Below, piece after piece: positions 53,001 to 64,000 of a stretch of 64,000 bases of DNA. The translations under genes were made by a program, and so were the position numbers. How positions within the stretch are numbered: the stretch's first letter is position 1; each line of letters opens with the position of its first letter. The notes under the pieces are model-generated. The model was not told where the DNA came from, did no database searches, and saw only the letters and a list, made by a program, of their open reading frames with translations. The DNA is from Candidatus Woesearchaeota archaeon (GTDB lineage Archaea > Nanobdellota > Nanobdellia > Woesearchaeales > ARS49), in contig JAFCDQ010000001.1 in the NCBI GenBank assembly GCA_017609645.1, positions 515,718 through 579,717 on the forward strand. Direction: 5' to 3'.

Positions 53001-54785
53001 GCTGGAGGTATCAATAGAAACATATATTTAACTGACGGATATATTGAGAATAATACAGATGATGGAGTGTATTGGTATACAGGAACTAATTCTGATTTTT
53101 TCCTTGATAATGTAAGTATCTTAGGAAATGGTGATTATGGACTTTATGTTTATGGAACTACTGGGGGAGAAATTAAGAATAGCAGGATTGCAAATAATTC
53201 AGATTATGGTCTTTATTATGTAAATACTGTTGATTCTTATAATGTTTCAAATACTAAAATTAAGAATAACACTAATCTAGATGTTTATATCGCTCATGCT
53301 AGCTGTGACGATAATAAATTTTGGAATAATACTTTTGAGAATAATAATACAAATATAAGCGATATAGGAACAGGAACTGAATGGAATATAAGCACAGGAG
53401 GAAATAGGTGGTTGAATTTTGATACTGATGCAGAAGGATGTCATGATGTTAATTTAGATGGTTTTTGTGATGATGCAAATGTAACAATTCCTGGAGCAGG
53501 AGGAGGTAAAGATGAATTGCCTTTATATGTAGGAGGAACAGCAGTTAGCTGTGGATCTAACATAACAACAGATACAACTTTAACAGCTAATCTAACATGT
53601 AATGGAACTGCTTTGAATCTTGTAGCAGATAATATTTATTTAGATTGTGATGGTTTTATAATTAGAGGAGATGGTGCTGGGGAAATTGGTATTAAAATAA
53701 ACAGCAGTGATATTAATGTAACAAATTGTTTTATTTATAATTTTACAACAGGCATTTATGCAGATCCTGGAGTTGGATTAATTATTGAGAATAATACTTT
53801 TGTTAATTCTACAAATTGCACTATTTTAGAAGACTATAATTCAAGTGTGATTAGAAATAATAGTTATCATAATTGTACTGATAATGCTATACTTTTGATT
53901 AATGAGAGCAGGCATAATAGAATTTACAATAATACAATTAATTTAAGTTGGGTTGGTGTTAATATTCGTAATGGGACTAATAATACTGTCTGGAATAATA
54001 GTTTTACAAATTCACTGCATCTTCATGCAAATGCAATAACTGGAAATTACTTTAATTCAAGTGTTGGAAACTATTGGGATGATATTTTGAGTTTGGCTAT
54101 TTATGATGCTAATAGAGATGGTTTAGGTGATTCAGGACCTGAATATCCATATAATTCGAGCAATAATGCAAATACTTCTGGAACAATTCAAGATTATAGA
54201 CCCTTTACAACTAAAACTGTTCCTGCACCAAATGTAACTTTAATTTATCCTGTTAATGATACTATTTTGAATGGAAGAAATGTTGACTTTAATTGTTATG
54301 GAGAAACTTTTAGTGCTTTAGTTAATATAACAAACATGACATTATATATTTGGGATTCAGGAAATAGTTTAATTTATCAACATACTCAAGAAGTAGGAAG
54401 TGTTTCTACTAATTCACAAAATTGGACATATATTTTACCTTCAGCAGACAGTTATAGATGGACTTGCGAAGTAAATAACACAGATGTGAATAATAGTTTT
54501 GCATTAAAGAATTATACATTTAATGTAACTTTTAGAACAGCTGTTGATAATGTTACAACAGATGTAGATACTGAGTTAAAGCCTTTTGATAGTTTAGAGA
54601 ATTTACCTCAGCAAAATAATCTAGTCGGAAGATGGGATTTTGTAGAAGATGCAACAGATACTTCTATATTTGGAAATAATGGAACAGTTCATGGAGCAGA
54701 AATAATGGAACAGTTCATGGAGCAACACATACTTTTGAGAGGTATGAGTTTGATGGGAAAGATGATGAAATTGATTGTGGTATAA
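47073..54785 (+). CDS. Giant surface protein, fragment 1 (LamG + right-handed beta-helix repeats)
   Basis: N-term TM; repeated LamG-type (AGGRYFDGVDDY, NGTIDSLAIYN) and NosD-like (NNTINLSWVGVNIRNGTNNTVWNN) segments; ends at a 26-nt tandem duplication. Confidence 0.85.
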   Translation: MHLKSNNRDIASLMLVIALTLFLLFGLHEINFAEKSNKITAGLSLAVGGNTTLVENATHDFVYEEPNASEAVEQIIEEINLTLPEEIPDNVTEPEIIPDNLTLPEENIIVPDNVSHDFVYNETNETEFSIPVVNETIVENVSLSKKIVKKVPEIDLNNVVDKYCEKISMFLTKCIVQTEQELCHLEGREIVCNGVMQATSYSDKLTLEQKNIFNAKGIPVNKNGKETEYFTPQLGTRFKVDWNSEKYIHIGFTSDVFVVQDFYYGTCDYTDNCTIDVGVEIKPSLSGNFTPKENNLIGSWNFVSDAIDTSNQQNNGTVYGATHTYERYSFDGDDDCIYVENTSTLNISEGTILFWFKPAKLGQTWPGIVSKCNGDFMANYNILIKLNDDDLKIQLGDGTNLQTFDTTSNFITTDWRHIAVTFNSSNITVYSNGEYLEETALTVIPAGLTIPLHIGCNFVGANQHFNGSIENVAIWNLSLKQREIELIYNETRFNTSGNTVTYSGTFTGGVFDSIEDATKWENLVWDSTEPTGTDISLRYRVGNYSRIDETDGDLIAYWKLNRSDGTNAFADSTNTTPDERQVLHMKFKNATDFYDFSGRGNTATNDGSAYTNIGYTKGGRYFDGVDDYLIKAAGFTQIPAAGEVTVTVWGKDLAVGAGGGTHGVITGIYGAAGANAEIVRFRLTSDVAFSLFNDYGCGKGLTTAGFEGWHFFAAKVSSDALDDKCCVSFDGGAWACDNDVDDFVASTQYIIGDYGTGSTYPLDGTLDNFRVYNTSLNDSQLKELYAKEAGTYDEVGSNQGFANGTGRAGGVFESDGALSFDGKDDYISLGHDASLDFGVDEDFTASFWMKTSDVKSRPLTKGAIGGAPVAWGLLFAGTGDLFGKIRNGSYNFQPFQPAGINVSDNKWHLITFVVDRDVNLILYVDGVAGTAIAAAGSNVDLTNNFDLVLGADDNGTSMYFNGTIDSLAIYNKALTTNEISDLYTSWGGWSAYDGSSPMSLSGRGKLLQYQAKLETPDNSLTPVLNEVNITNEPAKGIDTCRELNISGQTYAMNASIDNAAATCMIIDNHSVTLDCDGYYIDGQDSGNGIELMNNMENLTIINCDVRQFFRNLESDYNVNVTIENFTSFDAAYHGMDIDYPTNFTLRNIFVNYSTYRGIHFSAHYLDSVTNIYNLTSINAQNSGSTYAGFYYYQGAVGSLLNITGFNISDNGNYGFYARQYATTIDLNDGHIDNNGNSGFYSATTAEPIFYLDNITFFNNYGNGIYLGYSTGGVIKNCNISFNEQYGLYFYYSTVGYNITGNDIKYNKERDVFVSQASSTGNDFWNNNFEVNLMVEDEGSNNWNLTTGNTWDNYDSDDEDCVGAGGFCPNPYLIAGSSGMYDKKAIYTGVQGTLQQFDCHNCVDCTEYITNWTAKFGDNLSLTADVNNYGANCIDFLGHNGILFDGGGNTIDGTNTGSVFYIYPNPSSPIVGSDWITIRNVHVQEFQRGIYSYYSQNLTVFNFSGQDNTVQGVYLNYLNIGNFTNIGLDNNDADGLDIASQITNSELLIHNISASGNGDVGLLIRASAAGSMLNITSFNFSRNTDDGIELALSSATHGSLYLKDGHCDNNVDDGFVTGASQDIPVTYVDNVSFVNNTGKGVYFQGDGSGGEFKNCTIMFNKEHGLHLYYDIDNYNFTNNTIKYNYDRDVYIQANSQLFDNRFWKNHFEVNALVVDLDGDNHWNLTISGNQWDNYDSDDEDCTSVAGFCANDYQIGGSTGSYDKKAIYTGIQGTLNDYNCSTCGDCTERIHNWSIQFGDNLTLRANINNFGATCVDFRGHNGILFNGSNHLIDGTGAGNAFSVCSPTSSCTTGYVGSDFITITNINTQQFDYGMRTYYNFNLTLINYTSFDEDVNGLFLYYHDTGYLENIFINFSGDRGIRFDNHQTDSLTQFYNLTITETVAGATEGFYYYLPYAGSVLNITLFNISYNGDIGFYQQAGGINRNIYLTDGYIENNTDDGVYWYTGTNSDFFLDNVSILGNGDYGLYVYGTTGGEIKNSRIANNSDYGLYYVNTVDSYNVSNTKIKNNTNLDVYIAHASCDDNKFWNNTFENNNTNISDIGTGTEWNISTGGNRWLNFDTDAEGCHDVNLDGFCDDANVTIPGAGGGKDELPLYVGGTAVSCGSNITTDTTLTANLTCNGTALNLVADNIYLDCDGFIIRGDGAGEIGIKINSSDINVTNCFIYNFTTGIYADPGVGLIIENNTFVNSTNCTILEDYNSSVIRNNSYHNCTDNAILLINESRHNRIYNNTINLSWVGVNIRNGTNNTVWNNSFTNSLHLHANAITGNYFNSSVGNYWDDILSLAIYDANRDGLGDSGPEYPYNSSNNANTSGTIQDYRPFTTKTVPAPNVTLIYPVNDTILNGRNVDFNCYGETFSALVNITNMTLYIWDSGNSLIYQHTQEVGSVSTNSQNWTYILPSADSYRWTCEVNNTDVNNSFALKNYTFNVTFRTAVDNVTTDVDTELKPFDSLENLPQQNNLVGRWDFVEDATDTSIFGNNGTVHGAEIMEQFMEQHILLRGMSLMGKMMKLIVV
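54673..54723 (+). repeat. 26-nt tandem duplication (AAATAATGGAACAGTTCATGGAGCAG) breaking the giant ORF
   Basis: Second copy immediately follows the first; frame 0 to frame 2 shift matches 26 mod 3. Confidence 0.9.
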
Positions 54786-54961: not shown

Positions 54962-57313
54962 GTGGCTTCGCAATCAGACAGCACATACAATACTGATGAA
55001 TGGTATTTTATTACAGGAACTGTTAATTCTAGTGGTTTACAAACATTGTATGTTGATGGTATTGCGCAAACAGATACAGAACAAATTCAAGGAGATAGTT
55101 ATTCTAATTATAATTTTATTATTGGCAGAAGATCATATAATGCCTTATATTATTTCAATGGATCGATTGATAATTTTATGGTATGGAACACATCCTTATC
55201 AGCAGAAGAAATCACTGAACTTTATCGTGCTACACGCTTTAATACAGAAGGAAATACTGTTGATTATATTGGAAGGTATACTAATGCTATTGATTCTGGA
55301 AATGCTGCAAGTGTTTGGACTAATTTAAGTTGGATTGAAACAGAGCCAACAGGAACAACAATTGATTTAAGATATCGTCTTGGAAATTATACTCCTGTTG
55401 ATACAACCGATACTGATTTAGTTAGTTATTGGAAATTAAATAGGAGTGATGGGATAGTATTTAGTTCAAGTATTGAAAATAGTCAAGTGTTGCATATGAA
55501 ATTTGTTAATAGCACAGACTTTTATGATTTCTCTGGACAAGGAAATGATGGAACAAATGTAGGAAGTGCTTATACTGATAGAGGATATATTGGAGGAGCA
55601 AGAAGCTTTGATGGGGTGAATGATTATATGACGCTTACTCCATTTAATGTAACAGGTAATGGAACAATCAGTGTTTGGGTAAAACCAAAAGTCAATAATG
55701 TAAGACAGGCTGTTGTCGGAAAATTGCACTCGTTAGGATCTTCTGCTACTGCTGATTTCAGTCTTGAACTTAACTCTGATGGAGATATATATGTTTATGC
55801 TGCTGACAATGTAGCAGCTCAAACATGGGATACTAATATAGCTTACACAACAAATGTTTGGCAGCATATAGTAGTAACAGCTAATAGTTCGCTTTTAGCA
55901 GTTTATGTAGACGGAGTGCAAAGAGCCACAACAGCACAAACAAGAATACCTGCAGGAAACTCAAATAATTACAGTATTGGAAGATTTGGAGATTATTCTG
56001 TGGCCTTATACTTTAACGGTTTAATAGATAATGTAAGAATATATAATGGAACATCACTTAACACAACACAAATCAAAGAACTCTACTCTAAAGAAGCAGG
56101 AACTTATGATGAGGTAAGTGATAATCATGGACAAGCACAAAATAATGTTGATAGAACTGCAGGAATATTTAGTGATGATTTAGCATTAGAGTTTGATGGA
56201 AAAGATGATTATGTTGATTGCGGCAATTCAACTGATTTATTATTAGATGATGCTTTTTCAATCTCAACATGGTTTAAATGGGCAGGACCACATTCAACAG
56301 ACGCATTTACAACAATAATATCAAAATCAGCAACAGGTTTTGGTTATCACGAGAATTTTATGATACGGGTGACTAGCGCAGGAATAGTGCAGGCGCGTAT
56401 TGGAAACGGAACAGATGAAACTTCATTTAGTGGAATTGATGTTTCAGATCATAATTGGCATCATGCAGTATTAGTTGCAGATAATGGTTCTAAAACAGGA
56501 GACTTTTATGTAGATGGAGTATCAAGAGATCCAAAAGCAATATTTACTCCTATTTATACTAATGCCACAGCAAAATTAACAATAGGTATTTGGGAAGGGG
56601 CATTATATGGAGAATTTAACGGAACAATTGACTCTGTTGCTGTTTATGATAGAAGCTTAACAGCAAATGAAATATCTGATTTATACATTAACTGGTCTGG
56701 TTGGAGTACTTATTATACAAGTGGACCTGTTGATATTGGAAACTTTACTTCACGTGCTATTCAGTATCAAGCTTTGTTAAATACAAGCAATGATTCAGTA
56801 ACTCCTGTATTTGGTAGTTTTGAAACAACAGATTCAACTCCTCCTGTTATTACTTTAAATTATCCTGTTAATGATACAATATTAAATGGAAGAAATGTTG
56901 ATTTTAGATGTACTGGAACAAGTAATGCAAATATTAAGAATATAACTTTGTATATTTGGAATTCAGCAGGAGGATTAGTTTATAGTGATACTCCAACTAT
57001 GACCCCTGCATTAACTGTTTCACAGAACTGGACTTATATTTTACCAAGTGATGGAACTTATGAATATAATTGTAAAGCATTTAATGTAAATGATTTAGTC
57101 TTTGCGTTTGCTTCTCAAAATAAAACTTTTAATGTAACATTTAGAACAGGAATAGATAATGTTACAACAGATGTTAATACTGAATTAAAACCATTTGATA
57201 GTTTAGAGAATTTACCTCAGCAAAATAATCTAGTCGGAAGATGGGATTTTGTAGAAGATGCAACAGATACTTCTATATTTGGAAATAATGGAACAGTTCA
57301 TGGAGCAAAATAA
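54962..57313 (+). CDS. Giant surface protein, fragment 2 (LamG domains); frame is open back to the duplication at ~54700
   Basis: Continuation HGATHTFERYEFDGKDDEIDCG... in the shifted frame. Confidence 0.8.
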   Translation: MASQSDSTYNTDEWYFITGTVNSSGLQTLYVDGIAQTDTEQIQGDSYSNYNFIIGRRSYNALYYFNGSIDNFMVWNTSLSAEEITELYRATRFNTEGNTVDYIGRYTNAIDSGNAASVWTNLSWIETEPTGTTIDLRYRLGNYTPVDTTDTDLVSYWKLNRSDGIVFSSSIENSQVLHMKFVNSTDFYDFSGQGNDGTNVGSAYTDRGYIGGARSFDGVNDYMTLTPFNVTGNGTISVWVKPKVNNVRQAVVGKLHSLGSSATADFSLELNSDGDIYVYAADNVAAQTWDTNIAYTTNVWQHIVVTANSSLLAVYVDGVQRATTAQTRIPAGNSNNYSIGRFGDYSVALYFNGLIDNVRIYNGTSLNTTQIKELYSKEAGTYDEVSDNHGQAQNNVDRTAGIFSDDLALEFDGKDDYVDCGNSTDLLLDDAFSISTWFKWAGPHSTDAFTTIISKSATGFGYHENFMIRVTSAGIVQARIGNGTDETSFSGIDVSDHNWHHAVLVADNGSKTGDFYVDGVSRDPKAIFTPIYTNATAKLTIGIWEGALYGEFNGTIDSVAVYDRSLTANEISDLYINWSGWSTYYTSGPVDIGNFTSRAIQYQALLNTSNDSVTPVFGSFETTDSTPPVITLNYPVNDTILNGRNVDFRCTGTSNANIKNITLYIWNSAGGLVYSDTPTMTPALTVSQNWTYILPSDGTYEYNCKAFNVNDLVFAFASQNKTFNVTFRTGIDNVTTDVNTELKPFDSLENLPQQNNLVGRWDFVEDATDTSIFGNNGTVHGAK

Positions 57314-60300
57314 TGGAACAGTTCATGGAGCAACACATACTTTTGAGAGGTATGAATTTGATGGAGAAGATGATTATATTCAAAAAACAGGAGCGACTAT
57401 TTTAGATATGGTAGATAATTATACTGTTAGTTTTTGGGTTCAATTAGAAGAATTAGGAGTTGCAATGGAATTTGTTGACTTCCAAGATGCTCATTTCTAT
57501 CCTGCACTTGTCAAAGCAGCAGACAATAGACTTTTATTTTATTTAAATGCTAATTATTTCTTATATGGTGCGGGTGGAGGAGTTGGATCAATTGCTGATA
57601 CTAATTGGCATCATGTTGTTATGAAAATTGATGATAAAGGTGATATGGCAATTTACAAAGATGGCATAAATGTCAGCGGGCCTTCTGCAACAAAAACTGA
57701 TCCGATTATTGCAATGGGACAAGATATAGATATTGGTAATACTATTTGGTCTTGGCAAAATTTAAATGGTTCATTAGAAAATCTTTACATCTGGAATACA
57801 ACTTTAACAGCAGAAGAAATCCAAGAAGTTTATCGTGCATCTCGGTTTAATACAGAAGGAAATACTGTAAATTATTATGGAAGGTATACTAATGCAGTTG
57901 ATTCTGGATTTGCAAACACAACATGGAAAAACTTTTCTTGGTTAGAAACAGAACCAACTGGAACAAATATTTCAGTAAGATATAGACTAGGAAATTATAC
58001 GCCTGTTGATACAAGTGATTCTGATTTAGTTAGTTATTGGAAATTAAACAGAAGTGATGGAACAAATGCATTTGCAAATGCTAATCCTGATAATAATCAA
58101 GTATTGCATTTGAAGTTTAATAATTTAACTGACTTTAATGATTACTCAGGACAAGGAAATACAGGAACAAATAGTGGAAGTGCTTATACTGATTTAGGTT
58201 ATATTGGTGGAGCAAGGAGTTTTGATGGAACAAATGATTATGTTGATTTAGATGCTCATGTTAATAGTGTTAAAGATTTAACTACTGGAACAGTAACTGC
58301 TTGGGTAAAACCTGCTAGTGCTGGAACAACAAAAAGATTAATATCAACATCAGATAGTGGAGATGGCAGTTCATATTGGACATTGTATTTACCAGGTGCT
58401 AATGAGTTATATCTTATAGTAAGAGAAGCAGGAGTTTACATAATTAATGATGTAAGCACTGCACAATTACCAGTTAACGAATGGAGTTTTGTTGTAATAA
58501 CTCAAGACAGCACTAATTATCAAGGATATATTAATGGAGAAACTGCCGCAGGTTTAAGTGGAGCTAATAGTGGCTGGTTCAAAAACATCAGTGATACAGA
58601 CACTTTTAGAATAGGTAACATAAAATACAGTGCAATTGATAGACAGTTTTTCCACGGCAATATAGATAATGTAAGAATCTACAATACATCATTAAACACA
58701 ACACAAATCAAAGAACTTTATTCTAAAGAAGCAGGAACATACGATAGTAAAAATAGTAATCATGGAATTGCAACAGGAACAGATAGAGCAAGTGGAATAT
58801 TTAGTAATGATTTAGCATTAGAGTTTAATAGGGATGGAGATTATGTTGAAACAGGAAAAGAAAGAATAGGCAACAATTATTCTGCTTGTTTTTGGGCTAA
58901 ATCAAAAGAAGAAACATTAGGAGAACTTTATTTTGTTCTGGACTCATCATATTTAACAACTTATAATGGTTCACAAGTATATTTTTATACTAATGCGGTA
59001 AATTGGTGGATGTATGTTTATTTCGGGAACGGAACAAACAGTACAGGTTATACAAGACAACTTTTAACAACTAGCCCGCTTAATAATTGGTGTCATTTTT
59101 GTTATGTTTATAATACGACTCATATAAGATATTATCAGAATGCTAATTTATTGGGAGCGCCTGCAGTAATAACTAACATAGGTTTTGTACCTGAATCAAC
59201 TTATAATTTACATATTGGTGCAACTACTTGGAGTGGAAATGGTTGGAATGGCAGCATAGATAGTGTAGCTTTATACAATAGAACATTATCTGCAACAGAA
59301 ATATCTGATTTGTATATGAATTGGTCTGGATGGAGTGCTTATTATGGAACAAACTTTATTCCATTAAGCAATCAAAAATCCAGAGCAATACAGTTCCAGG
59401 CATTATTAAATACATCAAACAGTTCTGTTACTCCTGTATTTGGAGCCACAGATGAAAGATACATAACTCCTCCTCATTGCGGAATGATAATGACAACAAG
59501 CACAAACTTAACTTATGATTTAGACTGTAATGGAACGGCAATTTATATTGCAAAACCAAATATTTACTTAAACTGCAAAGGGTATACAGTAAAAGGAAAT
59601 GGCACAGGAATAGGTGTTAAAATAAATGATAGTGATGTGAATGTAACAAACTGCAACATACATAATTTTGTAACAGATGTTTATGCAGATCCTGGAACTG
59701 GATTAATCATAGAAAATAACAGCATACAAAACGCAAGCAACTGCACAGTATTGAATGCATTTAATACAAGCATAATAAGAAACAATACTTATTATAACTG
59801 CACTGATAATGCAATAATATTATACAATGAAAGCTTCTATAACCTAATCTACAACAACAGCATAAATTTCAGCAATATTGGAGTAACAATAATCAACAGC
59901 ACAAATAATACTGTTTGGAATAATTCATTTTATGATTCAATCACTGTGCATGCAAATGCAACCACAGGAAATACTTTTAACAGCACAACAAAAGGAAATT
60001 ATTGGGATGATATAACCACATTAAGAATTTATGATACTGATAAAGATGATATGGGTGATGCAGGACAAGATTATCCATATAAAGTTACACATAGTGCAAA
60101 TGTTGATGGGAATGTAACTGATTTCAGACCATTTGGAGCAAGATACTTTGGCTGCGGAGCAAATGTAACTTTTAATGTGACTATGCTTGATAATTTAGAC
60201 TGTAATGATACTGCGCTAAATTTAGTAGCAGATAGTTTAAGATTAGATTGTGCCAGATATATAATAAGAGGCGATGGCGCAGGATTGGTTGGATTAAAAA

Positions 60301-62762: not shown

Positions 62763-63146
62763 ATGCCAATAAAACCAAAATATTGGAAAAAAGAGGTTTG
62801 GATTACAATATTCATGACTTTATTAGTGTTTTATTTCATGACAATCAGCAAACTTCCAGGCCAGATAACAGGAGCGCATGTCATTAATGAATACACGAAC
62901 TGTGAATGGGACTATCTTACTGATGAATTTTTGGCAAAAGACGTTATTTCATTAGAATTAGACAAATATTTCTATACAGAAAGACCCTTGCAGTTTTATG
63001 TACACTCTAATGACGGAGAAATCTTTATGAAAGATAACTTAATGGTATTTTTCCCAACAAAAGAATATAATACTGTGACAATAATAGCAAGAAATGAAGG
63101 AGCAAGCTGCTCAAGAACAATAAAAATAATCAATGCTCTTTCTTAA
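62763..63146 (+). CDS. Secreted/membrane-anchored hypothetical protein
   Basis: N-term TM WITIFMTLLVFYFMTI; 127 aa. Confidence 0.5.
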   Translation: MPIKPKYWKKEVWITIFMTLLVFYFMTISKLPGQITGAHVINEYTNCEWDYLTDEFLAKDVISLELDKYFYTERPLQFYVHSNDGEIFMKDNLMVFFPTKEYNTVTIIARNEGASCSRTIKIINALS

Positions 63147-63438
63147 CATGATCTTTTAAAGTCAGCAAGGCGTAAATGAAAGTTATTATCATAAACAACT
63201 CAAAAAAGCCATTAATGTGAATAGGAATGTTAATCACATCATGCATCCTTAATATTGTAAGAATTTCTTCAGCAGTATAAACTAAAAGAGCAATAAAAAT
63301 CAATTTCCAAGGGAAAATATAAATGTTCTTTTTTCTCGGAACACTAAACATCTTTACAAAAAGAACAATAGCAATAATTACAAAAATAAGATTATAAACA
63401 GGACCAACTGTTCCAAGGGCAACAAGAAATTCACTCAT
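63130..63438 (-). CDS. Small multi-TM membrane protein
   Basis: Hydrophobic helices; paralogous to the adjacent gene. Confidence 0.55.
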   Translation of the reverse strand: MSEFLVALGTVGPVYNLIFVIIAIVLFVKMFSVPRKKNIYIFPWKLIFIALLVYTAEEILTILRMHDVINIPIHINGFFELFMIITFIYALLTLKDHVKKEH

Positions 63439-63740
63439 TTAATCCACCCTCTGTTAATATTTGTCTGCACAACTAAAGCAACAAACAAGAAACCAAGAAT
63501 GACTCCTGGAAGTATATGAGTTAAAAAAGGAGATGAAAAGACACCAAATGTTCTTAAAACTCCTAATATTTCAACAACAACAAAAAATAATAACGCAGGA
63601 ATCATCCACTTCCAAGCATGCAAATACTTAATTCTTCTGGCTGCACTAAATAAGCTTAAAGCAATCAAAGCTGCGACTAATGCTAAAACAACTGCAGAAA
63701 TCTGAGAAATTCCATAAATCCAATCATAAGTCGTAAGCAA
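63435..63740 (-). CDS. Small multi-TM membrane protein
   Basis: Hydrophobic helices; overlaps the downstream paralogue by 4 nt. Confidence 0.55.
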   Translation of the reverse strand: MLTTYDWIYGISQISAVVLALVAALIALSLFSAARRIKYLHAWKWMIPALLFFVVVEILGVLRTFGVFSSPFLTHILPGVILGFLFVALVVQTNINRGWIK

Positions 63741-63808
63741 ACTTTCACCTCTTTATGACTAATAATCTTGTTTATGTATATTTAAAGCTTTCGTTACAGC
63801 AGCAAAAT

Positions 63809-63990
63809 ATAGGTGTCAAGGACACTTATTTAATGTCGCTGAGTTGATATTGTAAATAGGCACAAGGTGCGTATTAATGTCGTAGAGTTTAGTTAAGAAA
63901 TAATTGCCAAGGGCAAGTATTAATGTTGCTGTGTTTATTTTGAATATAGGCGTCAAGGACACGTATTTTATTTGCATTGTTTTTGTGAAA
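63809..63990. repeat. Array of four ~45-46 bp units, each with a small hairpin (variable stem, AAG loop)
   Basis: AAG loops at 63818, 63864, 63909, 63955 (first base); stems GTGTC/GACAC, GCAC/GTGC, TTGCC/GGCAA, GCGTC/GACAC; conserved TATTTAATGTCGCTGAGTT-like tail. Confidence 0.85.
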
Positions 63991-64000
63991 AACTAGTGTG

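Follow-up and report, generated by a model that had tools for sequence, protein, structure and literature searches.

A putative family of REP-like extragenic hairpin repeats with covarying stems in a Woesearchaeales archaeon

We analyzed a window of 64,000 nucleotides from the genome of a Candidatus Woesearchaeota archaeon (G000:C1:515718-579717) that ends in a short array of hairpins, and found that this array is one of several in the genome. The hairpins share their flanks and their loop, while their stems vary in sequence and stay paired. We consider it about an even chance (probability of roughly 0.5) that they are REP-like extragenic hairpin repeats of a lineage-specific family which is kept, and probably also spread, as single-stranded DNA that folds at the replication fork. 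REP repeats in general are believed to spread in this folded single-stranded form. We see the family as a polar and tandem variant of such REP-like repeats and not as a new category, since REPs with compensatory stem subfamilies have been described before.

Within the window, four hairpins with an AAG loop occupy positions 63813-63962, as had been claimed in the original prediction (Table 1). The loops start at positions 63818, 63864, 63909, and 63955, which agrees with the predicted spacing of 46, 45, and 46 bp. The conserved tail that was said to follow the hairpins is present, as is the single mismatch in the last stem. Tandem Repeats Finder independently detects the 46-bp array. Because the array is detected unaided and 31 units occur at 12 intergenic places of the genome, it is not a product of chance. 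The membrane proteins neighbouring the array at 62763-63740 gave no confident Pfam family.

Table 1. Coordinates of the hairpin units and of the terminal segment in the window.
Feature	Position	Strand	Description
Unit 1	63797..63840	+	5' flank AAAATATAG; hairpin GTGTC-AAG-GACAC (63813-63825); tail TTATTTAATGTCG
Unit 2	63845..63885	+	Hairpin GCAC-AAG-GTGC (63860-63870); conserved tail GTATTAATGTCG
Unit 3	63889..63930	+	Hairpin TTGCC-AAG-GGCAA (63904-63916)
Unit 4	63935..63977	+	Hairpin GCGTC-AAG-GACAC (63950-63962), one C.A mismatch; tail degenerate, like most last units
Contig-end segment	63970..64000	.	31 nt; contig breaks here, adjoining the array

The window closes where contig C1 ends (579717), i.e., the assembly breaks at the array, which, because the contig ends there, cannot be traced past position 64000. 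The terminal segment of C1 has no match in the genome stretches compared. On its minus strand, the end of contig C2 has the last two units nearly unchanged (104 nt at 99%) and, after them, a gene whose sequence suggests a ferritin-like product. The likeliest explanation is that C1 and C2 adjoin through the array, whose variation or repetition broke the assembly. The end of contig C4 shares roughly 85 nt with the start of C1, and the assembly keeps the two contigs separate. This overlap, together with the array shared by the ends of C1 and C2, makes it probable that the contigs follow each other in the order C4, C1, and C2 reversed, for a total of about 1.12 Mb. These positions refer to an assembly of four contigs of a 1.1-Mb genome, which is 90% complete, and to a C1-C2 join that we infer.

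The unit has the form TTTAgTTAAAATATAG, a variable stem of 4-5 bp, AAG, the returning stem, and GTATTAATGTCG, and measures about 44-46 bp. It thus comprises a 5' flank that is AT-rich and conserved and has ATAG as its last bases, the stem with its AAG loop, a G.G mismatch, and the 3' tail. The hairpin extends outward past this conserved mismatch into ATA/TAT. In nearly all units, ATAG directly precedes the stem, and the units closing an array mostly have no tail beyond GTATT. The five-bp stems are TTGCC, GCGTC, GTGTC, GCACC, TGAGC, TGCGC, and GTGCC, and the four-bp stems are GCAC, GCGC, and GTGC; TTGCC, found in unit 3, and GCAC are the commonest types in the genome. Units either stand alone or follow one another head to tail, with 2-5 per array and a regular spacing of 45-47 bp. 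Searched with a covariance model built from 14 units, the genome gave 29 units at E <= 1, and the reading of the loci resulted in a catalogue of 31 units at the 12 intergenic places, not counting a few that have decayed; the array at the contig end therefore has companions. When about 578 kb of the genome was screened without bias for perfect hairpins sharing flanks, the AAG-loop family ranked first, with 25 hairpins and 10 different stems, 24 of the 25 having the AAG loop. In two arrays (L054:9425-9530, i.e., C1:443.42-443.53 kb, and L049:6596-6690), the regular spacing is interrupted by inserted or unrelated sequence, and one of these inserts has an inverted repeat of its own, GAAAATCCTAAG...GTTAGGATTTTC.

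The original prediction held that the palindrome is the variable part of the repeat, which is the case, and that the pairing is what is maintained. Among the 19 units with five-bp stems, 98.5% of the cells are paired (77.9 +/- 2.4 in shuffles) and 26 cells have changes on both sides (7.2 in shuffles); none of 500 shuffles reaches either value, a significance that is overstated because the units are related by descent. When the partner is slid by 1-3 columns, pairing in these units falls to 26-52%. The four-bp units agree with this result. Two or three different Watson-Crick types are seen at four of the five variable-stem pairs, and of about 133 variable-stem cells only 2, which belong to the same unit, hold a G-T pair. 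The near-absence of wobbles points to DNA rather than RNA. A GCGTC/GGTGC unit pairs only via two G-T wobbles and a GCGTC/GACAC unit has one mismatch; both look like hybrids of known stems.

Two dimers, at C1:440.45 kb and C2:228.35 kb, illustrate how stems change. They have an identical 30-nt linker, AAATAAAAAACCACTTTAATGAGAATATAG, found in no other array, and their stems are GCGC and GTGCC in one case and GCAC and TTGCC in the other. GCGC and GCAC are one compensated base pair apart, and so are GTGCC and TTGCC. Hence, the maintenance of pairing is borne out by these dimers as well as by the covariation in both stem classes, and stems change faster than flanks. Selection can account for such compensated changes, and so can arm-templated copying; either suffices. 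The stem orders GCAC-TTGCC and TTGCC-GCG.. recur among arrays, which suggests that the arrays probably derive from one another. The same stem was found in adjacent units in none of 17 cases, with 2.1 expected (P = 0.10), and we do not claim that heterogeneity is enforced.

The arrays lie in divergent, convergent, and tandem gaps between unrelated housekeeping genes, with no common theme. Relative to the array, the left neighbours are in the same direction at six places and in the opposite one at six, and the right neighbours at seven and five, respectively, so that gene orientation is irrelevant to the arrays. A role as regulatory hairpins of the operon at 63740 is not supported, as the units follow no rule relative to genes and are all on one strand. 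The ten places on C1 are on the plus strand and the two on C2 on the minus strand. When C1 is joined to the reverse complement of C2, as the array shared by their ends suggests, all units are on one chromosomal strand. They are also confined to a stretch of about 456 kb, from about 437 to 893 kb, on a circle of roughly 1,120 kb. With neighbours collapsed to eight regions, our own arithmetic gives P ~0.008 for the orientation and ~0.015 for the single 456-kb arc.

The only Cdc6 match is at C1:183.7 kb, and the arrays are in the arm to its right. The GC skew, taken at fourfold sites with a correction for gene strand, is noisy: values are negative up to about 440 kb, turn mostly positive between about 460 and 970 kb, and are negative again near 1,000 kb. 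This fits replication that starts near cdc6 and terminates about half-way round the circle. The arrays would then be in one replichore, where their plus strand would be the lagging-strand template. Folded as DNA, the plus strand reaches -5.2 to -5.8 kcal/mol, against -3.3 to -4.2 kcal/mol for the minus strand.

To place the family among known elements, we compared it with REPs, insertion sequences, integrons, CRISPR arrays, and Rfam. Bacterial REPs usually have more than 100 copies and are laid out in alternating inverted BIMEs. The hairpins described here are short palindromic repeats, intergenic and dispersed, with a copy number (31 units at 12 places) well below 100. GTAG REPs have been described as short extragenic hairpins with a 5' tetranucleotide, loops of 2-3 nt, and complementary stem subfamilies, some families being restricted to one species (PMC3733652). 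Our hairpins share with GTAG REPs and their TnpA-REP (RAYT) the tetranucleotide just 5' of the palindrome, the short extragenic hairpin with a loop of 2-3 nt, and an irregularity in the stem. They also share the subfamilies with complementary stem substitutions, seen here in both the five-bp and four-bp classes, the arrangement in singletons, dimers, and clusters, and the restriction of some families to one species. As the outline anatomy is the same, the family plausibly works like a REP.

The differences are nonetheless clear. The stems measure 4-5 bp plus the G.G and ATA/TAT, a long conserved 3' tail follows them, and about 31 copies are set strictly head to tail on one chromosomal strand of an archaeal host. 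The terminal tetranucleotide is not GTAG (or CGTC): ATAG is at the stem, and GTAG is sporadic and confined to linkers. The Y1/HUH transposase TnpA-REP (PF01797) has no match in this 90% complete genome, while control genomes match; TnpB was not found in the assembly either. All units being head to tail, the alternating inverted BIME layout is absent. Filing the family as a GTAG REP was therefore rejected on account of the ATAG tetranucleotide, the missing Y1 transposase and TnpB, and the lack of inverted BIMEs. The end hairpins of IS200/IS605 and of the MITEs derived from them are similar in being folded single-strand hairpins with a guide-like 5' tetranucleotide. Relatives of IS200/IS605 act on the lagging-strand template (PMC6006769), a strand-specific trait to which the arrays can be likened. 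Unlike these elements, the arrays come with no detected TnpA or TnpB and have no left and right ends enclosing a cargo.

Like the attC sites of integrons and CALIN clusters, the family has a variable palindrome that may be read by its shape, one recombinogenic strand being an attC trait; the arrays differ in the 46-bp spacing and the lack of cassettes. We found no paired attC boxes (RYYYAAC / GTTRRRY), but three isolated single matches over the 12 places, and we rejected the attC/integron reading because the R and L boxes are never paired at the units. The sole tyrosine recombinase of the genome (PF00589), judged from its sequence, reads as Xer-like with a C-terminal zinc ribbon. Conserved parts (about 33 nt) alternate regularly with short variable ones, as in CRISPR arrays. 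The logic of repeats and spacers does not apply, however, since the variable part is a palindrome of 11-13 nt reused at many loci; in addition, the arrays are many, short, and dispersed, and no leader was identified at them. Rfam gave no family match, only a sub-threshold hammerhead match outside the array.

The search with the covariance model found no unit in 59 relatives. A pattern search of 148 other genomes of the order showed no array-like excess, with at most five scattered matches each against 30 here. Exact-pattern scans of genome_contigs and viral_contigs resulted in isolated, chance-like single matches, none of them convincing to the covariance model, and no other hairpin families with shared flanks were found in about 130 kb of each of three family members. 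The family is restricted to this genome among those searched, and in that range (59 genomes by model, 148 by pattern) the lack of homologues, one of three observations that the original prediction named as refuting it, holds; the other two do not, as further units exist and covariation is in excess. As no genus-mate was among the compared genomes, the family may be older than it appears. REP-like repeats with compensatory stems are well documented for bacteria that have TnpA-REP; for DPANN archaea, we found none described in the literature consulted.

How could such arrays be kept? If they are REP-like, they would function through their plus strand, which would fold as single-stranded DNA when a fork coming from the cdc6 side exposes it as lagging-strand template. 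A putative protein would recognize the flanks by sequence and the hairpin with its mismatch by shape, much as TnpA-REP reads the tetranucleotide, the stem irregularity or mismatch, and the loop in a strand-specific manner (PMC8266576). Arrays would spread via short single-stranded DNA copies or gene conversion, and the stem sequence would drift freely while its pairing was kept. Several observations speak against this REP-like reading. Neither a Y1 (HUH) transposase nor TnpB was found in the 90% complete assembly, which leaves no known mover, and the copy number of about 31 and the one-stranded head-to-tail layout depart from bacterial REPs. If lagging-strand targeting were all that mattered, the other replichore should have copies in flipped orientation, and none was found. 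Mobility is a candidate property of the arrays. The strong pair-coupled stems, the strict polarity, and the lack of a known mover make the family a test of whether single-stranded DNA hairpin repeats spread without an HUH transposase. A second question that it can test is what keeps the arms complementary, selection or template-switch copying, and the polarity of the arrays is a strand marker for a chromosome with an unusual skew pattern.

Some of the same observations would be expected from passive replication errors, which we regard as unlikely but still credible. Intrastrand template switching at quasi-palindromes would copy one arm onto the other, with no selection, dedicated protein, or function, while fork slippage and local gene conversion would spread the arrays on one strand. 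Stems that differ by single compensated pairs next to an identical linker are what arm-templated correction gives, and the hybrid-looking stems (GCGTC/GACAC and GCGTC/GGTGC), the one-stranded and regionally clustered arrays, and the failure to find a transposase are in line with it. Yet plain template switching has no need of flanks and an AAG loop conserved over 12 places, nor of identical unit boundaries recurring at unrelated loci. A somewhat more doubtful explanation is that the arrays are polar sites of chromosome organization or replication, akin to KOPS-type or iteron sites, bound by a nucleoid, segregation, or fork protein that needs a defined polarity. The single strand, the single chromosome arm, the regular spacing of 45-47 bp, and the housekeeping neighbours without a theme would suit such sites, but the copies are few and clustered, and none was found in the relatives, which should share so central a system. 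A protein binding the duplex leaves the compensated change of both arms unexplained. Protein-binding sites, as proposed earlier, are still conceivable, although with both arms changing together a folded single strand is a better candidate than a duplex operator.

Covarying stems would also be expected of a structured non-coding RNA made of tandem units, or of hairpins in mRNA that act on the adjacent genes, and the whole array folds better as RNA than shuffles do (z = -2.96), even if such a fold is uninformative about the units. We hold this to be the least probable of the explanations, and the proposal of a tandem ncRNA found no support: G-U pairs are almost absent, Rfam has no match, array orientation is unrelated to either neighbouring gene at the 12 places, and transcription does not produce uniformity of the chromosomal strand. 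The REP-like reading could also be extended to archaeal, transposase-independent polar arrays of single-stranded DNA hairpins, with stems rewritten by arm-templated copying, conserved flanks, and all copies on one strand, which accompany a one-signed synonymous A/T asymmetry and are tied to an unusual, possibly unidirectional replication. This extension seems to us quite improbable.

Beyond the hairpins, the composition of the chromosome shows a peculiarity. With gene strand corrected for, the skew of A over T at fourfold sites has the same sign along nearly all of the joined chromosome (C4, C1, C2 reversed) and does not flip where the GC skew of this genome does. In a single-contig relative of the order (G037, L113-L132), A-over-T is positive in all 19 measurable stretches, and the one-signed skew is not clear in two of three sampled family members. 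The arrays are on the A-rich strand. A one-signed G/C strand disparity has been reported for Microgenomates bacteria and read as a hint of unidirectional replication (PMC7143001); the unflipped asymmetry seen here suggests that replication is perhaps unidirectional. The A/T asymmetry is almost gone over G000:C1:460000-545000, which includes the window from position 1 to about 32000, as would be the case for recently inverted or acquired DNA. The window also contains another kind of repeat: at 54673-54724 and 57283-57333, the same sequence of 25-26 bp, AAATAATGGAACAGTTCATGGAGCA, is perfectly duplicated in genes for giant LamG-like surface proteins. The periods of these duplications (26 and 25) are not multiples of 3, so that the reading frame is shifted at each, and they could be due to phase variation or to duplication during assembly.
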